Shown here one piece after another: positions 860-52,944 of a DNA stretch of 64,000 bases. Source of the stretch: Diphasiastrum complanatum (Eukaryota > Streptophyta > Lycopodiopsida > Lycopodiales > Lycopodiaceae); NCBI GenBank assembly GCA_029204225.1, contig MU831866.1, forward strand, positions 35,717 through 99,716, given 5' to 3'. Positions within the stretch are counted from its first letter, which is position 1. Each line of letters begins with the position of its first letter. The notes beneath the pieces were generated by a model. The model was not told the origin of the DNA, ran no database searches, and worked only from the letters and a program-made list of their open reading frames with translations. The position numbers and the translations under genes were made by a program.

Positions 860-3590
860 ATAGATGAAATTAAATTTTTTTATTCAGAATTGCAAGAATC
901 AATATCATCTGTGCGACAACATCTTGCAATTCATCTCCTCTTAGATGATTTTCATCATCACTCTTACTTTCAAAACTTATTTCATCATTCTGACTATTAG
1001 AATTTCTATTCTCAACATCTATGGAAGTGGGTGCTTCAAGTATGGTTTGAAGATTTACTACATCTCTAGGTAGCTCAATCTCATAGTTAAAATGAAGGCT
1101 TTCCATTTCATTCTCAACATTTGCACCCTCAAATATTCATCATGCTCGTGGTTCAACTTGAGCTACAAACCACCATATCTTGTTTAGTCGATCTGGTTGA
1201 AAAAACACTTGCAAAAAATACTATTTTAGAGCATAAATAAAACTCAAATATTGTAAACAAATATTGTTATAAACAAGAATGTTCTAATAATAAAGTATCT
1301 CAAGAATAATATCTTCCATTCGCATCCTCTTGCAAAGTCCCATTCTGCAATTGATATTTTATGTCCCTCTTTTGTTGCTTTTTGTAGTGTATCATGCATT
1401 CACTCTATAGTGCATTGCTTGGGCAATGGCTCAACTCATGTGAACTTGTGGCCATGTGTCTACCTCTATTCTGTCATTGGCGCTTTCTAGACAAGGCCCT
1501 CTATTTTTTCTCGTTGGAAGGTTGTCAACCTATGGACCTTTCCCATCCCTTGAGGTCACTTGTTACCTCTCAGTTTCCAAGCAAATGGATGTAGTTGATG
1601 CAAAATTTCAGTTACATAAAAGAGAGGTTCATGTACTAACCATCCCTTTGACATGGTACCTTCAGGCTTTGCCTTTTGATGCACATAATCTTTTAAGACT
1701 TTCATGTATCTTTCCATAAAGAAAATCCACCTAAAAACTCACAAATGGTTAAGAATAAGTGTTTTATTTAATTAGTTCATGTATCAATTGATTTAGTTTA
1801 AATACAAATGCAAAACAAAATCTATGCACTTATACCTAGTGTGCACTGGACCAGCAATAGAAATTTCTTCAACCAAGTGCACCAATAAATGCACTTGCAA
1901 GTCCATGATGGAAGTCGAAAAATATTTCTCAAAATGCACACAATCTCCACCATATCCTCATATATCTTGCAAACATCCAGCTCACGAATTTCTTTTGAAC
2001 ACATCCATCTGCGACATATTCAATTCATTTTATGTCTATTTGAATTTCCAGACAATAAATATTAAATAAAAAAAATGCACCAAGTAAATGTAAATACCCG
2101 ACAATGATTGATAGTTTGTATATGGTCTCACAAATATCTTTTGACAAGCACCCGCGAATTAACGATGGATAGATGAATTGAATCATCTTTAGCCAATCAT
2201 GAGACTTGAGACCCTGCAACGTTCCATCCACTGTGAATGATGCCCGTCGAGAATGGGCAAAACCAACTGGTGTTCTAATGTCATGAATAATGGAGCGCAC
2301 ATGGTGAAGCTCCTCCTTAGTGAATGTCCAAGGTACTTTTGGAGCATGATCTTCACCATCCTTTATATAATATTCTTTTTTGGTGTTTGATTCTTTTAGA
2401 TCATGCCTTGCAGCAATGGTATCTTTTTTACCAATCAAGTGTTTCCATATAGATTCACCCACATTTTTAAATCTGTGCATGGGATCAAATAGGTGATTAA
2501 TCAAAAGATTATTCCAATATTCCAAACGATGAAATATAGATAATCTTTTCATACCATCGATTGGCTTTGCTTGAGATTCCTCCCATAGTTTTCGCCAATC
2601 TTCCATAGACATCCTCTTTGGAGATATCTCTCTCTCAACTCTTCCTCCAAAACCTCTTCTATGAGTGTCTTTGAATGGATGGCCTTCATGCAAGTATTTA
2701 CGATGATTTTCATAAACAATTTTTTTGAGACTATGAGAGTATCTTCCCACAAGATTTGGCCCGCACAAAAAACAAGCATTTTTTTCAGTCGTTTGAAAGC
2801 CTGCCCAACAAATGGATACTATCAATCACTATTAAAAAAAATATATATGTTAAATGGGACATCTCTTGAGTGATTGGTACCTTCCTCGATATAAAATGCA
2901 ATCCTTTGGACATGCATGATATTGCTTGTAGTCCATCCCGATGTTAGTCATCATTTTTTGTGCCTTATCTCTTGTCTTAGGCATGACATTCCCTTCTTGA
3001 AGACTTTTGTTTTTCAATAGTCTGTATATGGCAAAAAAAATCCTATTAAAAAAAATATCATTAAATGTTCAAATTGTCAAGTTTGTTTCAAAGTAAATAT
3101 AACACAAGTAGAGGAAAAAAAAAACTCAAATAATAATGTGAGGCTTTGGTCACTCCATCTATATTTGGCTGAAAGATTCAATAGAAGTAGAGAAGTTGCC
3201 AAAAGAGATGTATTTGCTCTAGGGTACAATGTTGTCTTTGATTCTTCTCGCAATTTATTTTCTTCTTTAGACAAAAGTGCCTCCTCATCTTGTTCATTGT
3301 GTCTAGCTGCACTATTATTCTCATACATAGCATCCAACATGTCTCCCATGGCTTCAAATTCTTCATTCATTGGAAGCTCATTTTTATCATTGGAAGAGGT
3401 AGATGAGCTAGATTCAGATGCATTAGTCTCTTGATTAATGCGCTCATCAATTTTCATCATCTCTTTTAAGCCTTGACGTTGATGACGAGGTAATTGCTTT
3501 ATATGAGGACCGTCGTATGACATTCGTCGTCTCCGTCGGCCATTTCGAGGATTATTGTCTCCAACGCTAAATGAGGATGAAGAATCCTAT
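860..3590 (-). mobile_element. CACTA (En/Spm) transposase gene, Tnp2 type, decayed
   Basis: Reading the minus strand from 3590 down, the order is that of plant CACTA TnpD proteins. An N-terminal acidic/Ser-rich stretch comes first, then STSLLATSLLLLNLSAKYRWSD (about 3130-3240). A block with HACPKDCILYRG follows (2885-2925), then the Tnp2 core with GESIWKHLIGKKDT, IRTPVGFAHSRRASFTVDG and LKSHDWLK (about 2160-2480). A DUF4218-like part follows (about 1380-2010; SIMDLQVHLLVHLVEEISIAGPVHT, then ERYMKVLKDYVHQ) and last a DUF4216-like tail (about 870-1200; QVFFQPDRLNKIWWFVAQ). The longest open piece is 2025-2825 (266 residues). The rest is spread over other frames with probable small introns, for example around 2830-2880, so the gene is probably dead. 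Terminal CACTA repeats were not found near its ends. Confidence 0.85.
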
Positions 3591-3978
3591 ATACCCAAAC
3601 AACAAGAAGTAGTTTGGAACTATGCTTGATAAATGTTTCCTCCCAATACTTGATAGATCTAAATGGTGCATGAATATAAATTACCTCTTTGTTAAAAAAA
3701 GTATGAACATACCAGTGTATCTATTAGACCATTCTTCTTTCCAACTTGTTGACATTCAATGAATTTAAAGAACTACACGCTTCTACATATTTACGTATTT
3801 ATAAATTTCACATACATTAGCTTTCACTTATTATCTTATATAAACATCTAGAGAAATGACAATTGAGATTATACTTGACAAATAATGCTCCTAACATTTG
3901 ACATATTTAATGACAAAAACCAAATACAATCAAGAATGCATGGATTATACATATTGCATATCAACAAAATTTAAATAT

Positions 3979-5921
3979 TCACATTTGACTTATTGTCTTT
4001 TGCAAACATCTAGGTAGAGAACGGTTGAAACTATACTTGATGAACAATTCCTCCCCAACATTGATAGATCTAGTGGCACAGATCATTACATAACTGCCCC
4101 TTACATTCCTAATGAAATATTCTTCTTTTCCATTGGTACATTCTTTAAAATCACAATTCGTTAGTAAAGAGTGGCCAATAGAAATATTTATATATGTAGC
4201 AATGTTTTTATGCACATATGGATGTTCATCAATGTATGTACAATTTGCCCTTGAGATGTTGCATCCTTGCATGATCCTTGCATGCATTGCTCCTCTAAAG
4301 AACAAGCATTTGAATTTAAGCCATATACTTGCATCCTCCATTGGTGATGACACAAAGCATGCCAATCACCCCAATTGTATTGAGGTCCTGCATATGCCAT
4401 CAATGTCACAACACTATTTAGAGGGACCTCAATACTACTCAATGCAAAAAGGCCCAAACCAGCCTCGAAAAAGTGTTCACTAGGCATGATCATGTACATT
4501 TAACCCCAACACGTAAATGGTGTTCCATTTAATGGTAATGGTGAGTGGCCAACAAGAAAATCTACTTCTAATAAAACTTTTTACTAATGGGTGCAAGCTA
4601 GGTGGAAGAGGAAGGTCATACAAAGAACCTAGAATGTCTTTTGACACATCAACAGTGCGTAGTAATTTGCAATTATCTTTCAAACTAGTCATAATACATC
4701 CAAGACATGTTCTCCTTTTTAAAGGGTGGTCAAGTTTGTAGAATCCTCATGGAGCATCGTGGAGGACTCACGTGCAACGTCTAGGATAGGTGTGGTTGGG
4801 TGGTAAAAACGTTCTGGAGATTTGGACACATGGATTGAATCACAAAGCATTGATGAACTAATTATATCATGCAAGGGGTCATCATCAACAAGGGCATCAT
4901 CTAAGGCCAATGATGATCCAAAATCAATATTCATGTGATCTATCCTATCAATAATATTCTTGATCTCTCTTGCAACTCTTTTCCTTGAAACCAACTTATG
5001 TTCCTTCTATAGCAAAAGTTGAAAATGTTAGATGTATCAGTTTCTTTTCAAACAGAGTGTATTACACACCTACAAAACATAATATGTGTCACAAAGTTTG
5101 AAACCACTAATGTAAACCACAAGAATAAGGACTAGCTAATATCTCATTGTCATAAAACTTTGAAGCAAATGTGATTTCAATTAAGCAATATGATGTATTA
5201 ACCCTTTAATGGAGCACATCATCACATTACAAAAAATCTAATGAGCATGTACATGTACATAGTTTAAAACACACATTTAAAACACATTGAGCATAAAAAG
5301 AAAATCTCACATAAATGTCATATTTTATGATTTAAAGAGTTTACCTCTTGGATCCTATGTGTGCACTCCATTGGCCCAAATATGATTGTTGACAATCCTC
5401 CTTGTCCAAATCCTAAGGCCTTTGCATTGTGTGCATGTACATGGTATCCTCTCATCATATTCTGGTTGAAACTGGTCCAATAATCCAATTGCCAATGCTA
5501 AATTATATTGTAGCACAAATTCTTTTAGTGTCATTCATGTGAAAATTGACAAATTTTAGCATGTGACAAAAATTGACAAAATAATCTTTGTACATTTAGT
5601 GCATTTGCGCTTCATTTGTGATGAAGTGGTGTCTTGGTTTTCCAAAGAGCAATATACTATATCACTATCCTCAACCAAACTGGAGTACACCACTATTACA
5701 AATAAAAAAATTATGACATAAATCAATATACATACATGTGATGGATCAACAGGTAGTCTACGTCGACTGGTGGAAGAGCTTGAAGATGAACTAGTCAATA
5801 GTGGTTCATTGAGCTTTAGTCTTGCTTGCTCCTTTCTTTTGTGATAGATCTCAATTTTTCTTTCTTTCTCTAAATCACGTGGAGGTACGATAATTTTCCT
5901 AGATTCCATAATTGCAATCAA
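3979..5921 (-). pseudogene. SET-like-domain gene upstream of the CACTA transposase, broken
   Basis: On the minus strand a chain of plausible exons leads to a SET-like domain. Exon A (about 5739-5908) begins MESRKIIVPPRDLEKERK, is Ser-rich and ends before a GTATG donor. Exon B (about 5345-5497) lies between TTTAG and GTAAAC and encodes HAHNAKALGFGQGGLSTI. Exon C starts after CTATAG near 5007 with KEHKLVSRKRVAREIKN. The 3' part carries GLGLFALSSI (about 4450), then YINISIGHSLLTNCDF and ATRSINVGEELFIKYSF (about 4010-4190). These correspond to the G-x-G-F-A, N-H-S-x-x-x-N-C and G-E-E-L-x-x-x-Y elements of SET lysine methyltransferases. In-frame stops or frame changes near 4720, 4495 and 4300 show that it is broken. 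It lies head-to-tail with the transposase. It could be a captured host gene, an accessory gene of the element, or an older gene hit by the element. Confidence 0.5.
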
Positions 5922-6029
5922 ATGTCATTGTAAGAATAAATTTGCACGAGAAATCATACAATCATATTCAAATAAAAATAAAGTACAACTAATGTCAATA
6001 TCAATAATAATATATATGAACTTCAGTCA

Positions 6030-6615
6030 GCTGTTGCAGAGAAGGTGGTCACGTTTGAGGAAGGGGACGACGAAATACCAAAGATTAAATTGTCTAGTGC
6101 TGTTATTGACAAGCCAATCTCGAAATCAAAGACGAAGGACTATGACATAGTGACTGATATTGGATCTCTTTGTCCGAACATCACTTTTGAGCAATTATTG
6201 ACAAATAACACTTATTATAGAAGGCAACTGAAAGGTCTTTCTGTCCCTAAAACGAAGAAAAGAGTGTGTTTGCCAGATGTTGGTGTATTGTCTATTGATT
6301 TAGGAGACCTCGACGCACCTGAAATTGATGTTACCATTGCTAGATGTTTGATTGAAAAAGTGCCGATAGACTCTGGTTCCATCGTGAACATAAGACACGG
6401 CTCATGCTTTGGGGCTGACTGACATTCAACCGAGAAAAAAAAAAATCAAGTTAGCTAATTCGACGTGACGAACATTGCTCCCGGTTAAGCTTGAAGAATT
6501 CGGCAACCTACCAGTGGGCCGCTATACAAAATCAAAAGAAGACTTGATGTTGATTGAGGCTCAAAAAAATTTGGAGTTAGCCCAAAAACTACATGAAGAA
6601 TTGAATCCTTCTTAA
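6030..6615 (+). mobile_element. Ty3/gypsy fossil, gag end and protease start
   Basis: The open stretch 6045-6422 ends in CLIEKVPIDSGSIVNI, the active-site block of a gypsy-type aspartic protease (D-S-G with following S/N). The next bases in a neighbouring frame read LGLTDIQPREKK and LLPVKLEEFG, as expected just after it. RT, RNase H and integrase are absent here. The piece stops at about 6615, where minus-strand copia sequence soon begins. It is old and has a few breaks. Confidence 0.6.
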
Positions 6616-8455: not shown

Positions 8456-11430
8456 AACTTAAAGTTACTAATGTCACATCTTGGTTGTCTCGACCACTCA
8501 AGATGATATCATCCACATAGATTAGCAAAATGGTAACATTATTTCTAGGAAACTTATAATAAAGTGAATGATCATACTCACTCATAACAAAGACTTGAGA
8601 GAGTAAAAAAGTGCTAAGCTTAGCATACCAACTCCTTGGTGCTTGCTTAAGGCCATATAAACTCTTTTATAGAAGACACACATGATTTGGCTTTGTAGGC
8701 AAAATGTAGCTCTCGGGTTGCTCCATGTACACTTCCTCCTCAAGATCACCATTCAAAAAAGCATTTGTGCTGTCCAATTGCCCTATATCCCATCCATAAA
8801 GAGTAGCAAGAGAGACGATGACCCGAATGCTTACCATATTTGCCACGGGTGCAAAGGTTTCATCATAGTCAATACCATGTTCTTGAGCATATCCTTTTGC
8901 CACCAGCCTTGCCTTATGCTTATTGATAGATCCATCTTGGTTTGTCTTCAATTTGAAGATCCATTTGCATCCAATAGCTTTCTTGTCCTTAGGTAGCTCC
9001 ACCAATGTCCATGTTTCATTCTTCATAAGAGCTTGATACTCAAGATCCATTCCTTGGATCCACTCCTCTTTGTTCCTTGCCTCATCTACACAAGCAGGTT
9101 CATCAAAAGAAGTTAGGAAAGAAAAGTGTGTACCTCCAACATCTTGCTTACCTTTCTCATCATACATGAGCCTTGAAGGCGAGGTCCTTCATCATCACCA
9201 TCTAAAGTAGGATCCTTTACATCAACATCAATAATGTTAGATCCAACCACACCATCATCACTTGAAGACACCTTTGGAATATTCCCCTCATAAAAAATGA
9301 CATCTCTACCAATAATCACCTTATGAGTAGTAGGAATGTAAACCTTGTAGGCTTTACTCACCTCACTATATCCAAAAAATATACCTTTCCTTAAAGATAT
9401 ATCCTCCTTTGTCTTAGCGTCAAGAATGATATTGATATAGAAAGTACATCCAAAAGTTTTAAGAAAGTTGACACTCGGCCTCCTCTTGAATAGCATCTCA
9501 AAAGGTGTTCTTCCGTCCAATATAGCACTCGACCACCTATTGCATAGAGAGTTAGCACACAACAAAGCTTGATCCCAAAATGGTTTTGAAGATTAGTACC
9601 TAACCTCATGGCTTTAACACTTTCACATAAAGTCCTATTCCTCCTCTCAGCCACTCCATTTTGTTGTGGTGTCCTTGGAGTTGTGTACTCCCTCTTGATC
9701 CCATGCTCATCATAGAAAGCCTTGAACTTGGTACATATGTATTCTCCACCGTTGTCACTCCTCAAGCACTTGATCCTTGTGGAAAATTGGTTCTCCCTTG
9801 AATTCTTGAACTTCACAAATTAGACATCATACACTTCATCTTTGCTCTTTAGTAGATAGATCCAACAAAATCACTAAAATCATCAATGAAAGTTACATAC
9901 ATCTTAGCTCCACTATTGCTAATTGTAGTAGTTCCATGAATATTCAGATGTACAACTTGAAAAGGCTTTGTAGATCTAGATTTAGATCTAGTATAAGGTA
10001 GTCTATGTGACTTTGACAAAGCACAAGACTCAAACATGATTGATGCTACTTAAGTATTTTGGAAGACCAATCACAACTTGCTTCTTAGCCATTACCTCCA
10101 ATGACTTGAAGTTGAGGTGCCCCATCCTTTTATGCCAAACCTCTTGAATAGGTATTTTCTCACTTGTCATACATCCAACCTGGTTAGCAATAACACAAGC
10201 ATCTAGTTTGAACAACTTCCCTTGCCTTTTACCTTTTTCAATCAAGATATCCTTTCTTTTGATCATGCAAGAATCTCCATCAAACTCAACTTTGTAATCT
10301 TCACTTAGCAATTGACTCACACTAAGTAGATTCTTGGTAATGGAAGGTATGAACAAAACATCCTTCAGATGAACATTCCTATCTTCAGAGAGAGAAATAG
10401 GAATTGTGCCAATCCCTTTGATTGCACACTCACCATCATTGGCTGTGTAGATCACCTTCTTGTCATCTTCAGATGCCAACAAAGAAGTGAAGTACTCCTT
10501 GTGAAAAATCATGTGTGAGCTTGCACCACTATCAATCCACCATGGATCTCGATCTTCATCAACATACATGAAGACATCACAAAAGCATCATCATTTGAGT
10601 TTTGAGCATCCAAACCATCTTCATCGTGAGTAAGACCTTGCTTGTCTCCTTGATCTCTCTTCTTCTTGTAGCACTCACTTGCAAAGTGTCCTTTGATGGC
10701 ACATAACTTTGACCTATCTTTCCTTTTGCATTTGAAGAAGCCTTCCCTTGATCTTGCCCTTTAGAACGCTTACTTTTGCTTTTGCCCTTGAATTTACCCT
10801 TGATGAACATAGCCTCCTCTCCAACTTGAGATGTTGATGAAGATCCACCTCTTGCTGGAAGCCTATATTTTTCATTGATCAAGATCTCTTGAAGATCCAT
10901 CAACTTGGAAAAGTTCTTTGAATGGCTAGACTTTGTACATTGTTAGCATGAGCATCCAACAAACCATTAAGAATAACTTGAACAAGCTCTCCTTCCTTAA
11001 TGCTCTAATCAATGCAAGATAACTCATCATTCCAAGCCTTCACTCTCAAAACAAAATTATTTGGACTCTTTTCATTCTTTTGCAAACTTTGAAAGATTTT
11101 TCTTCTTAGATTCAACACTCTAGAAGTAGACTTGGATTCATGAAGCTTCTTCAAAGCTTCCCAAGCCTTACTTGATGAAGTACACTTACCAACTTCCTTG
11201 AGAAGTTCATTGGTAATAGTCATCTTATCATTTGTAGAGATCTTTTAGCTCTCTTGTCATACCTCAATTGTTCTTGTTGTGTTGCTGGCCTCTCCTCCAA
11301 ACCTACAACAATATCCAAAACATCATCATCTCAAGAAGTGATTCCATTCTCACTTTCCACAATGAATAGTTGCTTGAGGTAAGCCTATCATTGCCCTCCA
11401 ACATGTATCCACTTGATGTAGCCATGTTGC
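8456..11430 (-). mobile_element. Ty1/copia fossil with gag, protease, integrase and RT
   Basis: From right to left on the minus strand the parts are in copia order. Gag starts near 11425 (MATSSGYMLEG, then SSNYSLWKVRMES) and continues 11005-11223 and 10577-10903. The protease (10400-10569) has WWIDSGASSHM. The GAG-pre-integrase (10030-10150) has VWHKRMGHLNFKSLEVM. The integrase (9391-10037) has LRSDNGGEYICTKF and TPQQNGVAERRNRT. RT (8490-9167) has [39 protein letters not shown] and, near 8500, ILLIYVDDIILSG. No RNase H or flanking LTR was recognised, so it is incomplete. It has roughly six to ten breaks, yet it is the best preserved copia in the window and probably younger than the others. 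Confidence 0.9.
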
Positions 11431-14617: not shown

Positions 14618-18401
<3,784 letters not shown>

Positions 18402-18487: not shown

Positions 18488-20036
<1,549 letters not shown>

Positions 20037-24407: not shown

Positions 24408-24638
24408 GGTTTAATTTCTAGCCTATCCTCAACCCAAGATCCAAGCAATCTAGCATCAAGGAGATGAAGTTAGTTGTCACACGTAGGTTCGTTCCCATGA
24501 GAGCGATAGCATATCTCAGAATTCAGCATGTATGGAAGATCCACATCCAACTTTAACATCCATTAACCCTAAGCATTAACACTACACAATTAACACTACA
24601 TCCATTAACCCTATGATCCACAATGAGATAGGTACTTG

Positions 24639-25460
<822 letters not shown>

Positions 25461-46762: not shown

Positions 46763-49700
46763 GGTCTCTCGGATCTCCTCAGACTTGGATTCTTTACAAA
46801 CGGCCTACAACAACGTTAGCTTGGGCCAGTAGGCAAGAAGCATTGTTTTTGAAAACGATTTGAACAAAAAAAATCCAATTTAAAATGGGCTAGTTGGAAC
46901 CGGACTTTTGAATTGCGGTTGTTTCATCGAACCGTGATTCGATCCCTAAATAATGAAGTCTAGGCATTGTGCAACACATGGAGTTCTTAAACATGTGCCA
47001 CGAGAAGTTTATGCGATCCTCAATAATGAAAAGTTGAGGCATTGTGCACAGATGGAGCTCTAAAACATGTGGGGTCATCCCTTGTTTCCCTATGTTTTCA
47101 TAAAAGCATAGTTAGTGGCATCATTGAAGTGGAAGGTAACCCAATAGAGGTGGATCTCCATGAGGTGTTGAAGCATGTACGCCTCAGAACATTTCCCTGC
47201 TTAGTTGTGTTGATATATCAGTCTTAAAAGAAAGCATTGTACCATTTTGACTTGCCAACAATAAGTTTATTGCATGGCATTTCTTGCCATCGTTTCAACC
47301 ATTTGATAAGATGTTGAATGCATATTTCTACTCCAACTTTCTACTCATGCCACCTTTGCTTATAACACTCTAGTTCTCAATTGTGCCATCATGTGCCCCT
47401 CACAATTCCCACCAATGCTAGAACCTAGTTAATTATCAAATCCTTGCAACTCATTAGCTTGTGATCCCGAGATGATGGCCTTGCCAACCTGTGTTTCATT
47501 TAGAGCATTGAAGTGATTATGACATGAAATGCTTTTGACACGAACTTCCCACATTGCAAGATGACAAGAAAGAGGGTCCAGTGGAACTTGAAGTCCTGAA
47601 CATGTTGCCTATTTTACATTTCGCTTGTGACTCATGTATTAATCATTAAGTGATCAAACATCAATGAAACTTAGGTAGGATAAAGAGTATAAATGTCAGG
47701 TTTGAACACATTTCAATAAACAAAATTGGAACAAACAACATTCTACGACAAATAGGATTGATCGAGTATGATTCAATGTGGAATTGCAAGTCGTTATTCA
47801 GCAATTGGGCATTATTAATTGGCTCACGACTCACATGATTGATTAATTTTATCTAGGTGAGGAAGGAGAAAAGCGAGTAGGGTCAAATTTACGTGCTAAG
47901 AACTTGCTCTGAATCATTTTGCTTTAAATTCTCTAATGATATGTGAGTCTGAAGCTTTTCGTTCCTATAGCCTACTCTCAATAGAGTAGTAGGTATTGTA
48001 CCTGCTGTGGTACAAATCAGCCACATGTATCTTCATGTAAGATACCAAAATGAATCTTTTTTGAATGGAGATTTTGGGACTTATCTTGTTGCTACTTGTA
48101 CCAACTTGAGTTGACATACTTGTAGTTCTAACATAGGTACCAGATTTCCGGAAGAGTCAGCTGGACCAATGTATGAAAATGTGGGAGTTGACTGCTCAAA
48201 AGGACACTTTTCCAGTTCTATATGCGACTCTCGGTCTGATGCATGGGGGGATACGGTCATGGTTTTAGCATATTCTATGTTTTATGCCTATTTGTCATGG
48301 TGCTGCCGATTGGTACGAGCAGGTGGCTAATTTGCCTGTGCCACATGTCAGCTTAGGACTTGTGAGGGTTTAGGGGTGCTTGAGGGGATGCCTCATTCAT
48401 TGCTATGCAACAGTTGGTGGTTGGGGTATACTAGTAGCAGAATGTACTTTATGTTACACTGATGTAATTTTGAAAAACATGAATCAAGTGAAAGATATTA
48501 AATCTTGATTGTGTTCTATTGTATCCTCTCGTAATAACACTTCAGAAGCATATTACCTATTGGAAGAAGTATACCTATTTTGCTATTGAGCCAAAAGAAC
48601 CAAACTCTCAATGAGTGTAGTCCTTGAATATTCGTAAGTCTCAATGAAGAACAAGTTTCACGTCATTCAGTTTCAAAGCTAGTCAGTAATTAGTGTTCCT
48701 TCCAGTGAATTGGGCATGCTACATATAGCAAATCTTACCAAGACATTGGAAGACAGCTATGGCTTTCGTATTACAGCAAATTAACTTAGAGTTTGGCATC
48801 ATTCACAAAGAAACTTGTTCTGCAGAAAGCATTGGTTTCTCTGTATAACTAAAGTGATCCAAGAATTCAATTTTTTGCACATCTGATCCCTAATTGTACT
48901 TATCAAAGTTTGGTATAGCATTGTTAACAACCAACAGAATCACTAAAATTGCTGTTCTATCTCCTGGACATTACAGATTGCTGATGAGAATCGAGGTGGC
49001 TTTCCAAGCCCAAAAAAAATTGCTGCAAGCAAAGTACTATCTGATCGTGGATCAAACAGCAAATTTGCTGAGAATGAAGCACAAAAGCGTGCCCCTGGGG
49101 TGGTGGCACGTCTTATGGGGCTTGAGGCCTTTCCTGATAAGAAGCTATCTAAGGATGAGGACATGTTGAAGCAAATAGATTCGTCAGAACTCCGTCCACT
49201 TCAAGAGCTCTTGCATCACAAACAGGAGCCGTTTGTACTTCCAGATGAACTCCCTGAAGGACATGCAGAAAATTTTAGAAGGCAGTCATTGATAGAAAAG
49301 TTCTCAGTATTTGTGAAGAAGCCTTTGGACAAGATACATTATAAACAATCACAGGTCATATCAGATGGGGTATTATTCAAGAAGCTTCATATGCAAGACC
49401 CCTTAATATCTTCGTCAGACATGAAATCCCTACAGCACACGGTACTCTTGGCCAAGCACCCAGCAATAGAACCTTCTGATAAAGATTCATACTTATCTCC
49501 AAGTCCTCATTTAACACCGCAGCAAATGCAATATATTTTTAATCAGAATCTCTCGGCGCTAAAAATCCATAGCAAGTCTAACTCTCCAAGTGAAATCCCT
49601 AATATATCAAGTAATCTATCACATCAAGGAGGTGCAAGCCTTGTAGAACCACATGTATTAGCCGGTCGCCAATTTCGTCTTTCAGTTGTTGAAGCCTCGA

Positions 49701-52700
49701 CTGGGACAACTACAGCTCTTTCCAAGGATTCTGAAAGCGACACTGATTCAATACGAACAATCGAATCCCTTGAATGTAGGAAAAGAGTTAGACATAGCCA
49801 TGTAAATCTGGCATCCAATGCAACTAAGTTATTAAAAGGTCAGCCAATGAGCAAAAGCTGGAACGGTGCAGAAGATGCAAGTATCAGAAAATCTCATCCT
49901 GAACACAATTTGCTTGAAACGCCAAGAAGACGACCCTTTTCACCTCTCTCTCTAAAACCTTTGGACTCCTTACCAGAGATTAGACCTGAAAGAAAAACTA
50001 GTTCTCACAGAGAAGTGAATAGTACGAAGGACCATGCTAAACCGAGCCAACCAAAAGCTTTTTCAAGAAGATGTAGTGCAGATAAACAAGATGCCAAGAA
50101 AGAAGATCGAGCATGCAGTGCAGCTAAAAAGACTCTTGGCATTCAGGTGACCAATTCAAATCAAGTTGGAGCCACAATGTCGAGCTCAAGTAAATCACAG
50201 TACATCCCTAGTGGCGATACAAAACAACTGCCAGCTCTATCTGGCCAAGATTCTTTGAAAAGATGTAAAAGTGGAAGAGAAGGAGTCCCTTCTCCAGCCT
50301 GTTCTGTAAAATCATCACTTATTCGAAGCAAAAGTGGAAAAGAAGGAGATGGCTCTTTGAGGCTTTCAATGTTGCATCAAGAAGTAAAACAGCAAATTTG
50401 TATAGAAGAGACTATAACGATACCTGAACAGATGGCAAAAGGGTCCTCAGAGAAACTTCAACATGATACAGTCCATCATACAGTCCAAGAAGCAGACATA
50501 CTCATTGAAAAGAGGAGGATGCTCACCAACAAAAAAGATTTCCCAGCTGAACGTCCATTACCACAAGAAGAGGAGCTTGCTACTTCAAAAACTCGATTGC
50601 CGGCAGTCAACCTGAAGGAAAAGATGCCAGCAGCACCAACATCTATGTCATCTTGTCACTCTTCTAAACAGCCAAATCTCTCCAATTTCAGTGGTAAAAA
50701 GAATGCTAGTTGTAGCAAGCACTTTGCTCCGGGTCAGCTACAGAGGCTACCGAAGCGAAAACAGGGCAGTAATGCTGATGAAGCTCACAAGAGAATTGAA
50801 ACCTCTGCAGTGAAATCATTATCAAGGAGGAGGGTAACTCCAGATCCTTGTGTTCCTAGCGGAAAGATGTCTGTAGGGACCAAAACCAGGAAAATAAAGG
50901 CAGAGCCTGTCCGTCCAGAAGGCCGACGACCTCTTGTGACAACGTTGGAAGATAGAAATCATGCTCAAGGCAAACCTGTCAAAAATTGCAATGAAAAGAA
51001 AATTAGTATGGATCAGAACCAGAAACTCCCACCAAAACGTCAATTGGCCCAAAAAAAAGTCGTCAAGAATGGTACTCCAAGATCAGAGGTAAGCAATAAT
51101 AGAAGACTAGGAAAGGCTAATGTTATGAAAGAGAACCTGGATGCTAAGAGCTGCAAAGACATAGTCAGTTCAGCTGGAACGGAAATAACAGCGATGCACA
51201 GAGAGAGTCCTCACTCACAACATGTCCAAAGTTCGCCTTTGGCATTCCTGAAGGTTCTTACTAAGCCAGAAGAAAGGCTGGATGACTCTTGCAATTTTCT
51301 GGATACTAAGATGCAGGAACCAATTGAGAACACTAAACAAGGCAAAGTACTAGAGGAAATTTCTTCAAACGGTTTTTCTGAAGTTGGTAGAACTTTAGAG
51401 TCAATAGAGTCATCCAGATTGACTTCGTTGGAGGATTTTGTCGATTGTTCCAAAAACAACCCTCCAGTTACACCTAATGCTTGCAATTCCATTGTTCCTG
51501 GTCAGGAAGTTTCCATACTCTCATCGACAGAGGTGTGTGCCTGTGCTTCTGCAACCTCTTGCTGCAATTTGTTTTTGCCTATTGCTGTCAAATTCCTTAA
51601 CCAAAGATATGTATTTTAAATATATGCATTGACAAAAGTTTTTAATATGTGCTCTTAGACTCTCTTGTTGTCATCAACAGAGACTTGTTTCTTACAAAAT
51701 ATGTGTTTTTGGTGAGCAGTTGACTGAGGCTTTGGATGAGATTAATTCCAATGTCGAGGCCCGGCATGACCCTTTACATGAGCAGGAAGGAATCAGTTCA
51801 AGTGAATTCAATACAAGCAAGGGAAAGGACTGCCTGGATGAAAGTTGTCAACCCAGCCCAGTCTCTGTTTTAGATATACCCTTCCAGGATGAGAGTCCTA
51901 AAACCTTGGACGAATCCAGAAGAGATGAAGGTCAGCAGTTCCTTCTTGTGTCAATTTAATTTTGCTCATATATGTTAAATGTTCTTCGATGTAACATTTA
52001 TATATGAAACTATATTACCATTGCCCACCAGTTGACCTTTACCAGAACTCTTAGCAGGAACTAAAGAAAGCCTTACACTTCAGAGTCAAATGCTGCCATA
52101 TTGTTTATAAAAGCACCACCTAGCAAAGAGCTCTGACAATAAATTGCTGTGTCTATCAGTGTCTAGGAATGAAGAACTTGGGAATCTCCATAGCCAGGCA
52201 TCCTTAAACTCGTCAGCTGTTCCTCATTTGAAAGCTAGAGAGACTGCTACCGGAAGCACGACGGAGGATTTTATTCAAAGTGAGAGAATTATGGAAGCCA
52301 TTCTGGGCATTTCCAGAATAAGGCACATTGATCCATGTTCTTTAGGCATTAAAGAGGCGATCGATATGGCTTGTGCAGAGGACGAAGTACGGTATATGGA
52401 CGATATTCTCTCTGGCTCGGAATTCCTGCTGGAAGAAACAGATTTTGTGAATTGGTCCACGCAAGGGATGCCGATTGAAGCTTCTGTCTTTGAAACATTA
52501 GAGACTCAGGATTATACTCCTGCGGATAGAGAAAATTCGGAATTCAGCCCTTCAGACGACGACGACGAGGGCTTTATTTCGTTGCTTGCATCAAAGAGAT
52601 CGAGAGGTTCATTTCTCCAGAGAAAACTGCTATTTGATTGTTTCAATGAGGCCTTGAAGCTCAAGTTGCGATCTCTATGGAGCGACGATCCTCTGGCTGG

Positions 52701-52944
52701 GGAGCTGTTCTTGAAGCAACGACTCTCTGGAAAGGAGCAGCTCGTAGATGAACTGCATAGACAGACTTGCCAGTGGAGAGAGTTAGCAGGAAGCATCACA
52801 GACGAGCTTGTTGAGAAAGATATGAACTCCGGCTTTGGTAAGTGGACTGACGTGAAACGAGAAGTAACAGAAGTAGGATCAGACGTGGAGAGACTGATTT
52901 TTAAGACTATGATGGAAGAGATAATAGACGAGATGATTGAGTGA
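36523..52944 (+). CDS. TRM/LONGIFOLIA-like protein (DUF4378), five exons
   Basis: Joined exons 36523-36664, 37412-37476, 48977-51532, 51720-51930 and 52160-52944 give 3,759 nt, about 1,252 residues. All introns are GT-AG with phases 1, 0, 0 and 1. Residues 24-37 (GGYMGAFFHLFDRN) match the N-terminal LFDR motif of TRM proteins. VARLMGLEAFP is at 112-122, QPSPVSVLD starts near 965, and a DUF4378-like C-terminus runs from about 1035 (ILGISRIRHIDPCSLG) to the end (IFKTMMEEIIDEMIE). The middle is Ser/Lys/Arg-rich and disordered, as in the family. TRM/LNG proteins bind cortical microtubules, recruit TON1 and PP2A, and promote directional cell elongation. That role here is inferred from family membership. 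Length and motif order are normal and no internal stop was seen, so the gene is probably intact. The first ATG after the leader was chosen because the LFDR motif follows in frame. Confidence 0.88.
37412..37476 (+). CDS. TRM-like gene exon 2
   Basis: A 65-base exon after CTGGCAG and before GTAGGT. It encodes ALPQPRKEFNEDKLPMAKLL, matching the KLPxxxLL stretch that precedes IADENRGG in TRM relatives. It restores the frame between exons 1 and 3. Confidence 0.8.
38147..38385. repeat. 125-bp tandem duplication in intron 2
   Basis: Two adjacent copies start at 38147 and 38272 with TTGAAAGCCTTCAAT and run through CATCATTTGATAATCAA and GAATTCAC to AGTTTT. They differ at scattered bases. Confidence 0.9.
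40560..41030 (-). mobile_element. hAT transposase C-terminal relic
   Basis: The minus strand near 40590-40700 reads IIWNILSLNHAKKRNKLS, then VQLERLVYMQSNPHLLE. This is the hAT dimerisation region (NWSxFxxIHTKxRNRL then LxxLVYVxxNLxL). Upstream pieces QWW and LNLQKIAIQ fit the preceding helix. Frame changes are present. It is a second copy, separate from the larger hAT at 42300-46360. Confidence 0.65.
41240..41600 (-). repeat. LTR-like piece of family X, reverse orientation
   Basis: The reverse complement contains CAGCATTATCACGCTCAAC, TTATTACTTCAAGC and GTTGATATTAATCAGAGTGC, as at 21890-22298 and 27825-28085. No coding sequence of its element lies next to it, so it is solo or a remnant. Confidence 0.7.
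41740..42110 (-). other. Weakly hAT-like open stretch
   Basis: A 96-residue minus-strand ORF (41759-42049), extended upstream, has IFIVLEQFLKVQ. The hAT relic at 43880-43925 has FIFIVLERLLKVHGSLRQM. The rest (FSPKGTVDWVVSALIQAI) is unrecognised. It may be another hAT fragment. Confidence 0.3.
42300..46360 (-). mobile_element. hAT transposase relic, antisense in intron 2
   Basis: From right to left on the minus strand there is a BED-type zinc finger near 46200-46300 (TCKYCGKDYTGGTTRIKAH). A DUF659-like catalytic part follows near 44560-44760 (CSIISDGWTNTKK, SLVLDGQTLFRYIDEA) and 44094-44372 (NCVGMGRLVNEKYPWILWT, HCLDLLFEDIAKLPWI). Next are FIVLERLLKVHGSLRQM near 43900 and LQAKWEWFHQPLHGACILHP (43266-43505). 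The dimerisation region lies near 42860-43010 (ACERNWSVFSLIHTKRRNRL) and an acidic tail at 42300-42524. The order is that of a complete plant hAT protein. Frame changes and stops throughout, plus a likely insert at 45378-46000, make it non-functional. Confidence 0.85.
45378..46000. mobile_element. Small element with CAATGTTT inverted ends inside the hAT
   Basis: The left end CAATGTTTTCTCGAAAC and the reverse of the right end CAATGTTTCATGGGG share the first eight bases. Both flanks are rich in TTTCGAAACG words. Near the left end GAACGCTGAAACG and CGTTTCAGCGTTC form a perfect 13-bp inverted repeat. The 623-bp interval separates the BED part from the DUF659 part of the hAT relic. Its only ORF (45597-45905 minus, 102 residues) is not recognised. 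No clear target-site duplication is visible. Confidence 0.4.
46708..46758. repeat. (CT)25 microsatellite
   Basis: An uninterrupted CT run. A CA/CG-rich alternating purine-pyrimidine stretch (ACACACGCGCGTGCGCGC) lies upstream at about 46515-46540. Confidence 0.95.
46941..47075. repeat. 74-bp tandem duplication in intron 2
   Basis: GATCCCTAAATAATGAAG at 46941 and GATCCTCAATAATGAAAAG at about 47015 each lead into AGGCATTGTGCA and CATGGAG/GATGGAG, then AAACATGTG. Two diverged copies. Confidence 0.7.
48977..51532 (+). CDS. TRM-like gene exon 3 (large central exon)
   Basis: It starts after CATTACAG with IADENRGGFPSPKK, reads through VARLMGLEAFP and the long basic/Ser-rich middle, and ends SSTE before GTGTGTGC. 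At 2,556 bases (852 codons) it holds two thirds of the protein. The open frame continues about 90 bases into intron 3, which is the alternative if splicing fails. Confidence 0.9.
51720..51930 (+). CDS. TRM-like gene exon 4
   Basis: Lies between GGTGAGCAG and GTCAGCAG. It carries the QPSPVSVLDIPFQDE motif of the family and ends in phase 1. Confidence 0.88.
52160..52944 (+). CDS. TRM-like gene exon 5 (DUF4378-like C-terminus)
   Basis: Starts after TCTATCAG and completes the phase-1 codon (VSRNEELGNL). It holds the C-terminal DUF4378-like region and the stop TGA at 52942-52944. Confidence 0.9.

Follow-up and report, generated by a model that had tools for sequence, protein, structure and literature searches.

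A SET-domain exon in the transposase region of a high-copy CACTA/EnSpm-type transposon family of Diphasiastrum complanatum

Introduction

Histone and DNA methylation hold down plant transposons. Plant CACTA/EnSpm elements (TNP2/TNPD) usually encode a Transpos_assoc-like part, tnp2, and DUF4218, in that order. According to the available part of PMC12730594 (citing Kojima and Jurka 2014), several transposon lineages have acquired genes for SET histone methyltransferases, among them HarbingerS and MuDR elements of Phytophthora. The same part describes fungal EnSpm and other DNA transposons that carry a gene for a TET/JBP dioxygenase, proposed to aid escape from silencing (PMC12730594). Among plant MuDR elements, VANDAL transposons encode anti-silencing factors (PMC12730594; see also references in PMC13317346).

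CACTA gene capture or plant transposons are treated in PMC13317346, PMC8616336, and PMC9033089, and the accessible portions of these papers mention no SET-bearing CACTA element. Our literature search likewise found no plant CACTA element with a SET domain – though most subscription papers were outside its scope, which makes this weak evidence of absence. SET-carrying transposons are thus already known from oomycetes, and on this weak evidence a plant CACTA element that carries SET is apparently new.

Here we analyze a 64,000-nucleotide stretch of D. complanatum contig MU831866.1 (the window), in which a preliminary description had placed a SET-like methyltransferase remnant head-to-tail with a CACTA transposase. 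We are nearly certain that the unit in the window belongs to a high-copy CACTA/EnSpm-type family with a selected SET exon in its transposase region. The whole explanation – a decayed CACTA/EnSpm copy with a SET exon, predicted splicing, and a putative chromatin role – we hold at a probability of roughly 0.6.

A broken transposase unit in the window contains a SET exon

The window contains one broken minus-strand unit in which a Transpos_assoc-like (TA-like) exon, a SET exon, tnp2, and DUF4218 follow one another in order. The SET exon (3979..5006, minus strand) comprises a linker and a SET domain and runs from an AG acceptor to a TGA stop, with frameshifts in this copy. A Pfam profile search matched PF00856 at 4365-3979 on the minus strand (E 6.5e-6, 26.9 bits, profile 46-104 of 105; curated cut-off 22.4 bits), and this match identifies the C-terminal half of the domain at 4033..4248 (YIN..NC..GEELFIKY). 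A motif scan and alignment with open sister copies placed the N-terminal motifs (GLGLFA..YAG) at 4386..4460 on the minus strand. The N half (GLGLFAL..YAGPQYNW) is in a different frame from the C half. Its piece at 4499-4188 (minus strand) has no Pfam profile match, and a joined read-through of both pieces scores 26.2 bits, with a PF00856 match that is no longer. The predicted N half in the window copy is therefore supported by its motifs.

Both motifs are rarer by chance than observed. In 100 Markov sequences the N motif (GxG..F/Y-A..YxG), which occurs once in the window, is expected 0.04 times per 64 kb over six frames, and the C motif, also found once, 0.0 times. The four longest stop-free minus-strand stretches in 3979-5006 (128, 103, 95, and 88 amino acids) have a summed length that was reached in 0 of 1000 Markov sequences; the plus strand of this interval also has a stop-free stretch of 129 amino acids. 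The SET-like sequence that the preliminary description had reported at 3979..5921 is thus confirmed by a profile match above cut-off and by motifs beyond chance expectation. The profile search that it had suggested gives the same answer in the wider family, where PF00856 is matched by 9 of 9 aligned members at E values up to 0.1 (best 6e-9), with a score of 33.9 bits in the copy L028.

The window's SET exon shifts frame near 4735, 4580, and 4250 and carries a stop near 4501, and we therefore regard this copy of SET as dead and decayed. Two further traces of the domain lie on the minus strand between SET and tnp2. One, at 3821..3915, duplicates part of the SET tail in decayed form (local alignment score 53; best of 500 shuffles 32), and the other, at 3613..3661, is a second decayed duplicate that abuts the tnp2 exon (score 49; best of 500 shuffles 29). 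The latter is also found in L031, L035, and L041, which belong to the subfamily of the window copy (three of seven copies examined by pattern).

Directly downstream of SET and on its strand, as had been proposed, tnp2 begins with an open stretch at 3077..3586 that contains the first tnp2 exon, preceded by AG at 3587-3588, and an acidic linker. A second tnp2 piece (..KDCILYR) follows at 2850..3068. Both were identified by tblastn to family copies, and neither has a Pfam match of its own. The tnp2 C part at 2025..2825 matches PF02992 (E 2.1e-7, profile 138-205 of 213). The tnp2 core is absent between the last two of these pieces; the sister copy L025 also has PF02992 profile positions 41-140, and its core matches at E 2.7e-32. 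Minus-strand DUF4218 pieces of the transposase occupy 1556..2019, with PF13960 matches above cut-off at 1957-1793 and 1738-1556 (E 4.1e-8 and 7.5e-9) and a third piece at E 0.16. The adjoining tnp2 gene of the preliminary description is, as a correction, itself broken.

The upstream exons that it had thought plausible are present, and one is Transpos_assoc-like. This TA-like exon (5345..5462, minus strand, with a GT donor at 5344) matches PF13963 at E 1.2e-4 with 22.6 bits; five of five other copies match the same profile at 14.3-23.3 bits, and all six scores lie under its cut-off of 27.7 bits. A possible first exon at ~5736..5909 (minus strand) is an open frame, Ser-rich and basic, beginning MESRKII.., that we infer to be coding; in L025, among other copies, a similar Ser-rich stretch lies 5' of the TA-like exon. 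The earlier account made no mention of the SET exon lying inside an apparent transposase transcription unit, with the TA-like exon before it and the tnp2 exons after it.

Several sequences around these exons resemble retroelements by eye. Between the first and TA-like exons, 5560-5721 on the plus strand resembles a copia RNase H end (SWFSKEQYTISLSSTKLEY) and has no Pfam match. A plus-strand open frame of 146 amino acids at 5982-6422 ends like a retroelement protease (VPIDSGSIVN), also without a Pfam match. A copia Pol-like stretch is seen upstream of the first exon in L025 (118-~260), with counterparts in several copies of subfamily A (see below).

The window as a whole is 38% GC, transposon-rich, and plant-like. 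It contains copia-type reverse transcriptase sequence at 438-680 and 8667-9188 and, at 48947-52944, a gene that matches VARLMGL and DUF4378. Long CT/GA simple repeats at 15669-16058, 19454-20001, and 24582-25016 read as Leu-Ser or Arg-Glu open frames, which we do not regard as genes. An Rfam scan of the window gave no match, and tblastn gave no convincing further copies of the SET and tnp2 pieces within it.

Element class and ends

The succession of tnp2 and DUF4218 in the window is a CACTA/EnSpm feature. Among 20 copies sampled around SET matches elsewhere in the genome (the forward sample described below), 12 share a common 3' end near ..CACACATATATGTAGTTGTG, seven of them terminating exactly in GTG. 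Inverted, the shared 3' end begins CACAACTACA, in agreement with the CAC..GTG ends that the available part of PMC12730594 describes for some EnSpm elements. No terminal repeats were found in the window, and no element 5' end was found in 3 kb upstream or, for one copy, in a further 5 kb.

SET and tnp2 sequences are linked across the genome

We searched the window's own genome (1.74 Gb, 5176 contigs) with the SET profile, the window SET piece, and the tnp2 C part. Candidate numbers from these searches are not copy counts: PF00856 gave 146 listed matches from 150 scored of 875 candidates, the SET piece gave 153 listed matches with 150 of 2561 first-look candidates scored, and the tnp2 C part gave 144 listed matches and 5899 candidates. 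Among the PF00856 matches listed, ~12 appear by eye to be host-gene-like, and >100 cover only profile positions ~45-105, like the window. In the vicinity of C2:36.76 Mb, matches to SET (98%) and tnp2 (100%) occur together; this is probably the other haplotype of the window.

A forward sample was drawn from SET matches, comprising ~10 kb around each of 20 PF00856 matches with only partial profile coverage; one member of each near-identical pair was kept, and a cluster at C1 48.6-50.2 Mb was left out. The first tnp2 exon lies directly downstream of SET on the same strand in all 20 copies, at a distance between the SET and tnp2 matches of 253-329 bp in 18 of them. The next tnp2 piece was found in 16/20, the tnp2 C part in 14/20, and the TA-like exon, by tblastn, in 9/20.

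A backward sample took 20 of the 144 listed tnp2 matches (every seventh row from row 3), with 2.7 kb upstream of each read. SET-exon sequence lies upstream in 11 of these 20 copies, nine of which have SET-domain sequence. The remaining nine have no SET sequence within those 2.7 kb, and eight of the nine also lack the first tnp2 exon; we take these eight to be putatively truncated. Where the first tnp2 exon is retained (12/20), SET-exon sequence accompanies it in 11 copies, L040 being the exception.

The excluded cluster at C1:48.6-50.2 Mb is dense, with ~20 SET matches. In L050, a copy from it, the SET frame is open over 315 amino acids but no tnp2 match is significant, and one ORF occurs twice, ~2.1 kb apart. 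The cluster may represent tandemly arrayed SET exons from which the transposase has been lost. Beyond this genome, no relatives were confirmed in the viral and prokaryote collections viral_contigs and genome_contigs.

The preliminary description had asked whether other tnp2 copies adjoin this SET sequence, and the forward (20/20) and backward (11/20) samples answer that they do. It had also offered a captured or disrupted host gene as an alternative. Disruption is real for the window copy, which is broken as expected of a host SET fragment that this one CACTA copy took up, or that came to lie next to it, and that is now decaying. Capture of that kind does not fit the family, because SET and tnp2 adjoin in the other copies. 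Linkage in both samples rules out a one-off host-gene capture, to which the co-divergence of the two parts and the selection on SET reported below are also opposed, and we give it almost no credence.

SET and tnp2 diverged together, and SET was constrained

The copies fall into four subfamilies: A (most of the forward sample), B (a second element in L016), C (L024), and W (the window with L030, L031, L033, L035, L036, L042, and L045). The SET-tnp2 arrangement is common to all four. SET was present in 26 copies and the first tnp2 exon in 31, and in the 23 copies where both were sufficiently complete, SET and tnp2 distances correlate at r 0.977 (0/2000 permutations). The window and L036, for example, are 8.8% distant in SET and 9.8% in tnp2. 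SET and tnp2 have diverged together.

Ten open-frame copies of SET were used to estimate dN/dS. Between subfamilies the ratio is 0.07-0.20 in all 29 pairs, and within subfamilies it is 0.50-1.92 in all 16 pairs. The third codon position holds most changes in the five between-subfamily pairs checked, but not in three within-subfamily pairs. For comparison, the tnp2 C part has dN/dS of 0.21-0.26 in three window-A pairs. Choosing open frames only biases the set towards young copies, which by itself gives no low between-subfamily values. The SET domain was under purifying selection during the evolution of the family. We read the two ranges as selection while the family was active, followed by neutral decay after insertion.

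These ratios bear on whether the SET exon, amplified along with the transposon, is a functionless passenger. Most of the copies read have an interrupted SET exon, including 10 of the 11 with a found SET acceptor (L026 alone is open to the stop), and the within-subfamily ratios would also suit a passenger. The between-subfamily ratios, however, are low in 29 of 29 pairs and no higher than those of tnp2 in its three pairs, which makes a passenger very unlikely. Because SET is linked to tnp2, diverged with it, and has low dN/dS between subfamilies, we consider the SET gene to be maintained by the transposon.

Gene structure and possible products

Exon boundaries are consistent with more than one way of joining these exons. 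The TA-like exon of subfamilies A and C closes with GAG|GT, and their SET exon begins behind an AG; both boundaries are phase 0, as is the start of the SET exon in the window. In all four subfamilies the tnp2 exon opens at AG|GA, again in phase 0. Its first Met is not conserved although the residues preceding that Met are, which makes it likely that tnp2 draws on an exon further upstream. The SET frame has a stop of its own, within a few codons of one place in all four subfamilies, and the exon is uninterrupted in sister copies, with 415 amino acids open from acceptor to stop in L026.

These phases suggest, as the simplest model, that the TA-like exon could be spliced to the SET exon, which would yield a TA-SET protein, or spliced past SET to tnp2, which would yield the transposase; both products would then share one N-terminal zinc-type domain. 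We regard two products by alternative splicing as evenly poised between being right and being wrong. A single fused TA-SET-tnp2 protein, with no separate SET product, would draw on the phase-0 acceptor at the tnp2 exon and on an in-phase GT that subfamilies A, B, and C have shortly ahead of the SET stop. Against fusion, this GT is missing in subfamily W, window included, the base preceding it is a poor donor fit, and the SET stop keeps a similar place in all four subfamilies; we judge fusion improbable.

Divergence and possible activity of the SET protein

NHSC is a canonical SET-domain motif. In the nine aligned members it is not kept, and INS(S/A)I.HP.L.NC stands in its place, with the Asn of this region (N168) invariant. 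GEELFI and the Tyr that follows it (Y219) are invariant in the same nine. A PDB search with a single sequence and with the nine-member profile found no solved SET relative, and AlphaFold run from the nine-member alignment gave no usable model (mean pLDDT 32.8). Because NHSC is replaced and no solved SET domain is matched, we describe this SET domain as divergent and do not claim a canonical enzyme.

Constraint on SET argues for a function, with histone methylation as a putative one. Through the TA-like domain, the SET protein may be targeted to DNA of the element itself and there might methylate a chromatin protein and so alter the element's expression or silencing. A chromatin role at the element is possible, at somewhat less than even odds. 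The altered NHSC motif and the lack of a match between the nine-member profile and any solved SET enzyme would also fit a domain that is no longer a methyltransferase and has a binding role, as a SET-fold partner of the transposase. The invariance of GEELFI, Y219, and N168 speaks against loss of catalysis, and we think a binding-only role unlikely.

Discussion

The most specific form of our reading is that one gene, by alternative splicing, might produce a transposase and a SET methyltransferase that share an N-terminal DNA-targeting domain, with the methyltransferase delivered to the element's own copies and setting their chromatin state, whether as anti-silencing or as self-restraint. We put this forward tentatively and think it rather doubtful in full. 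A selected SET gene in an abundant CACTA family would imply an element potentially able to write its own chromatin mark, which opens a direct test of whether histone methylation is used by transposons to escape or tune silencing. Many SET-domain matches in this genome would then also be transposon genes, which annotation could mistake for host genes.

The known systems resemble this family in different respects. In the partial accounts available, SETMAR/Metnase also unites a SET domain and a transposase, but it is a primate host gene derived from one Hsmar1 insertion, unlike the present mobile family. VANDAL anti-silencing factors are not known to be SET proteins. As described in the available extracts, they are encoded by transposons and change the epigenetic state of their own element, a parallel with the putative role of the present SET protein. 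Fungal TET/JBP elements, as far as their source was accessible, are CACTA-type and other transposons with a chromatin- or DNA-modification gene, like this family, and differ from it in enzyme class and hosts.

Closest in gene content are the HarbingerS and MuDR elements of Phytophthora, which, like the present family, are DNA transposons with a SET-protein gene beside the transposase. The comparison is by description only, from part of one source, and these elements belong to other superfamilies and to oomycete hosts, whereas the present family is a plant CACTA with its SET exon between the TA-like exon and tnp2. With plant CACTA/EnSpm elements (TNP2/TNPD) the family shares tnp2 (PF02992) and DUF4218, together with a Transpos_assoc-like part that scores below the profile cut-off, in the order usual for such elements; it is unlike them in the SET exon that lies between the Transpos_assoc-like part and tnp2.
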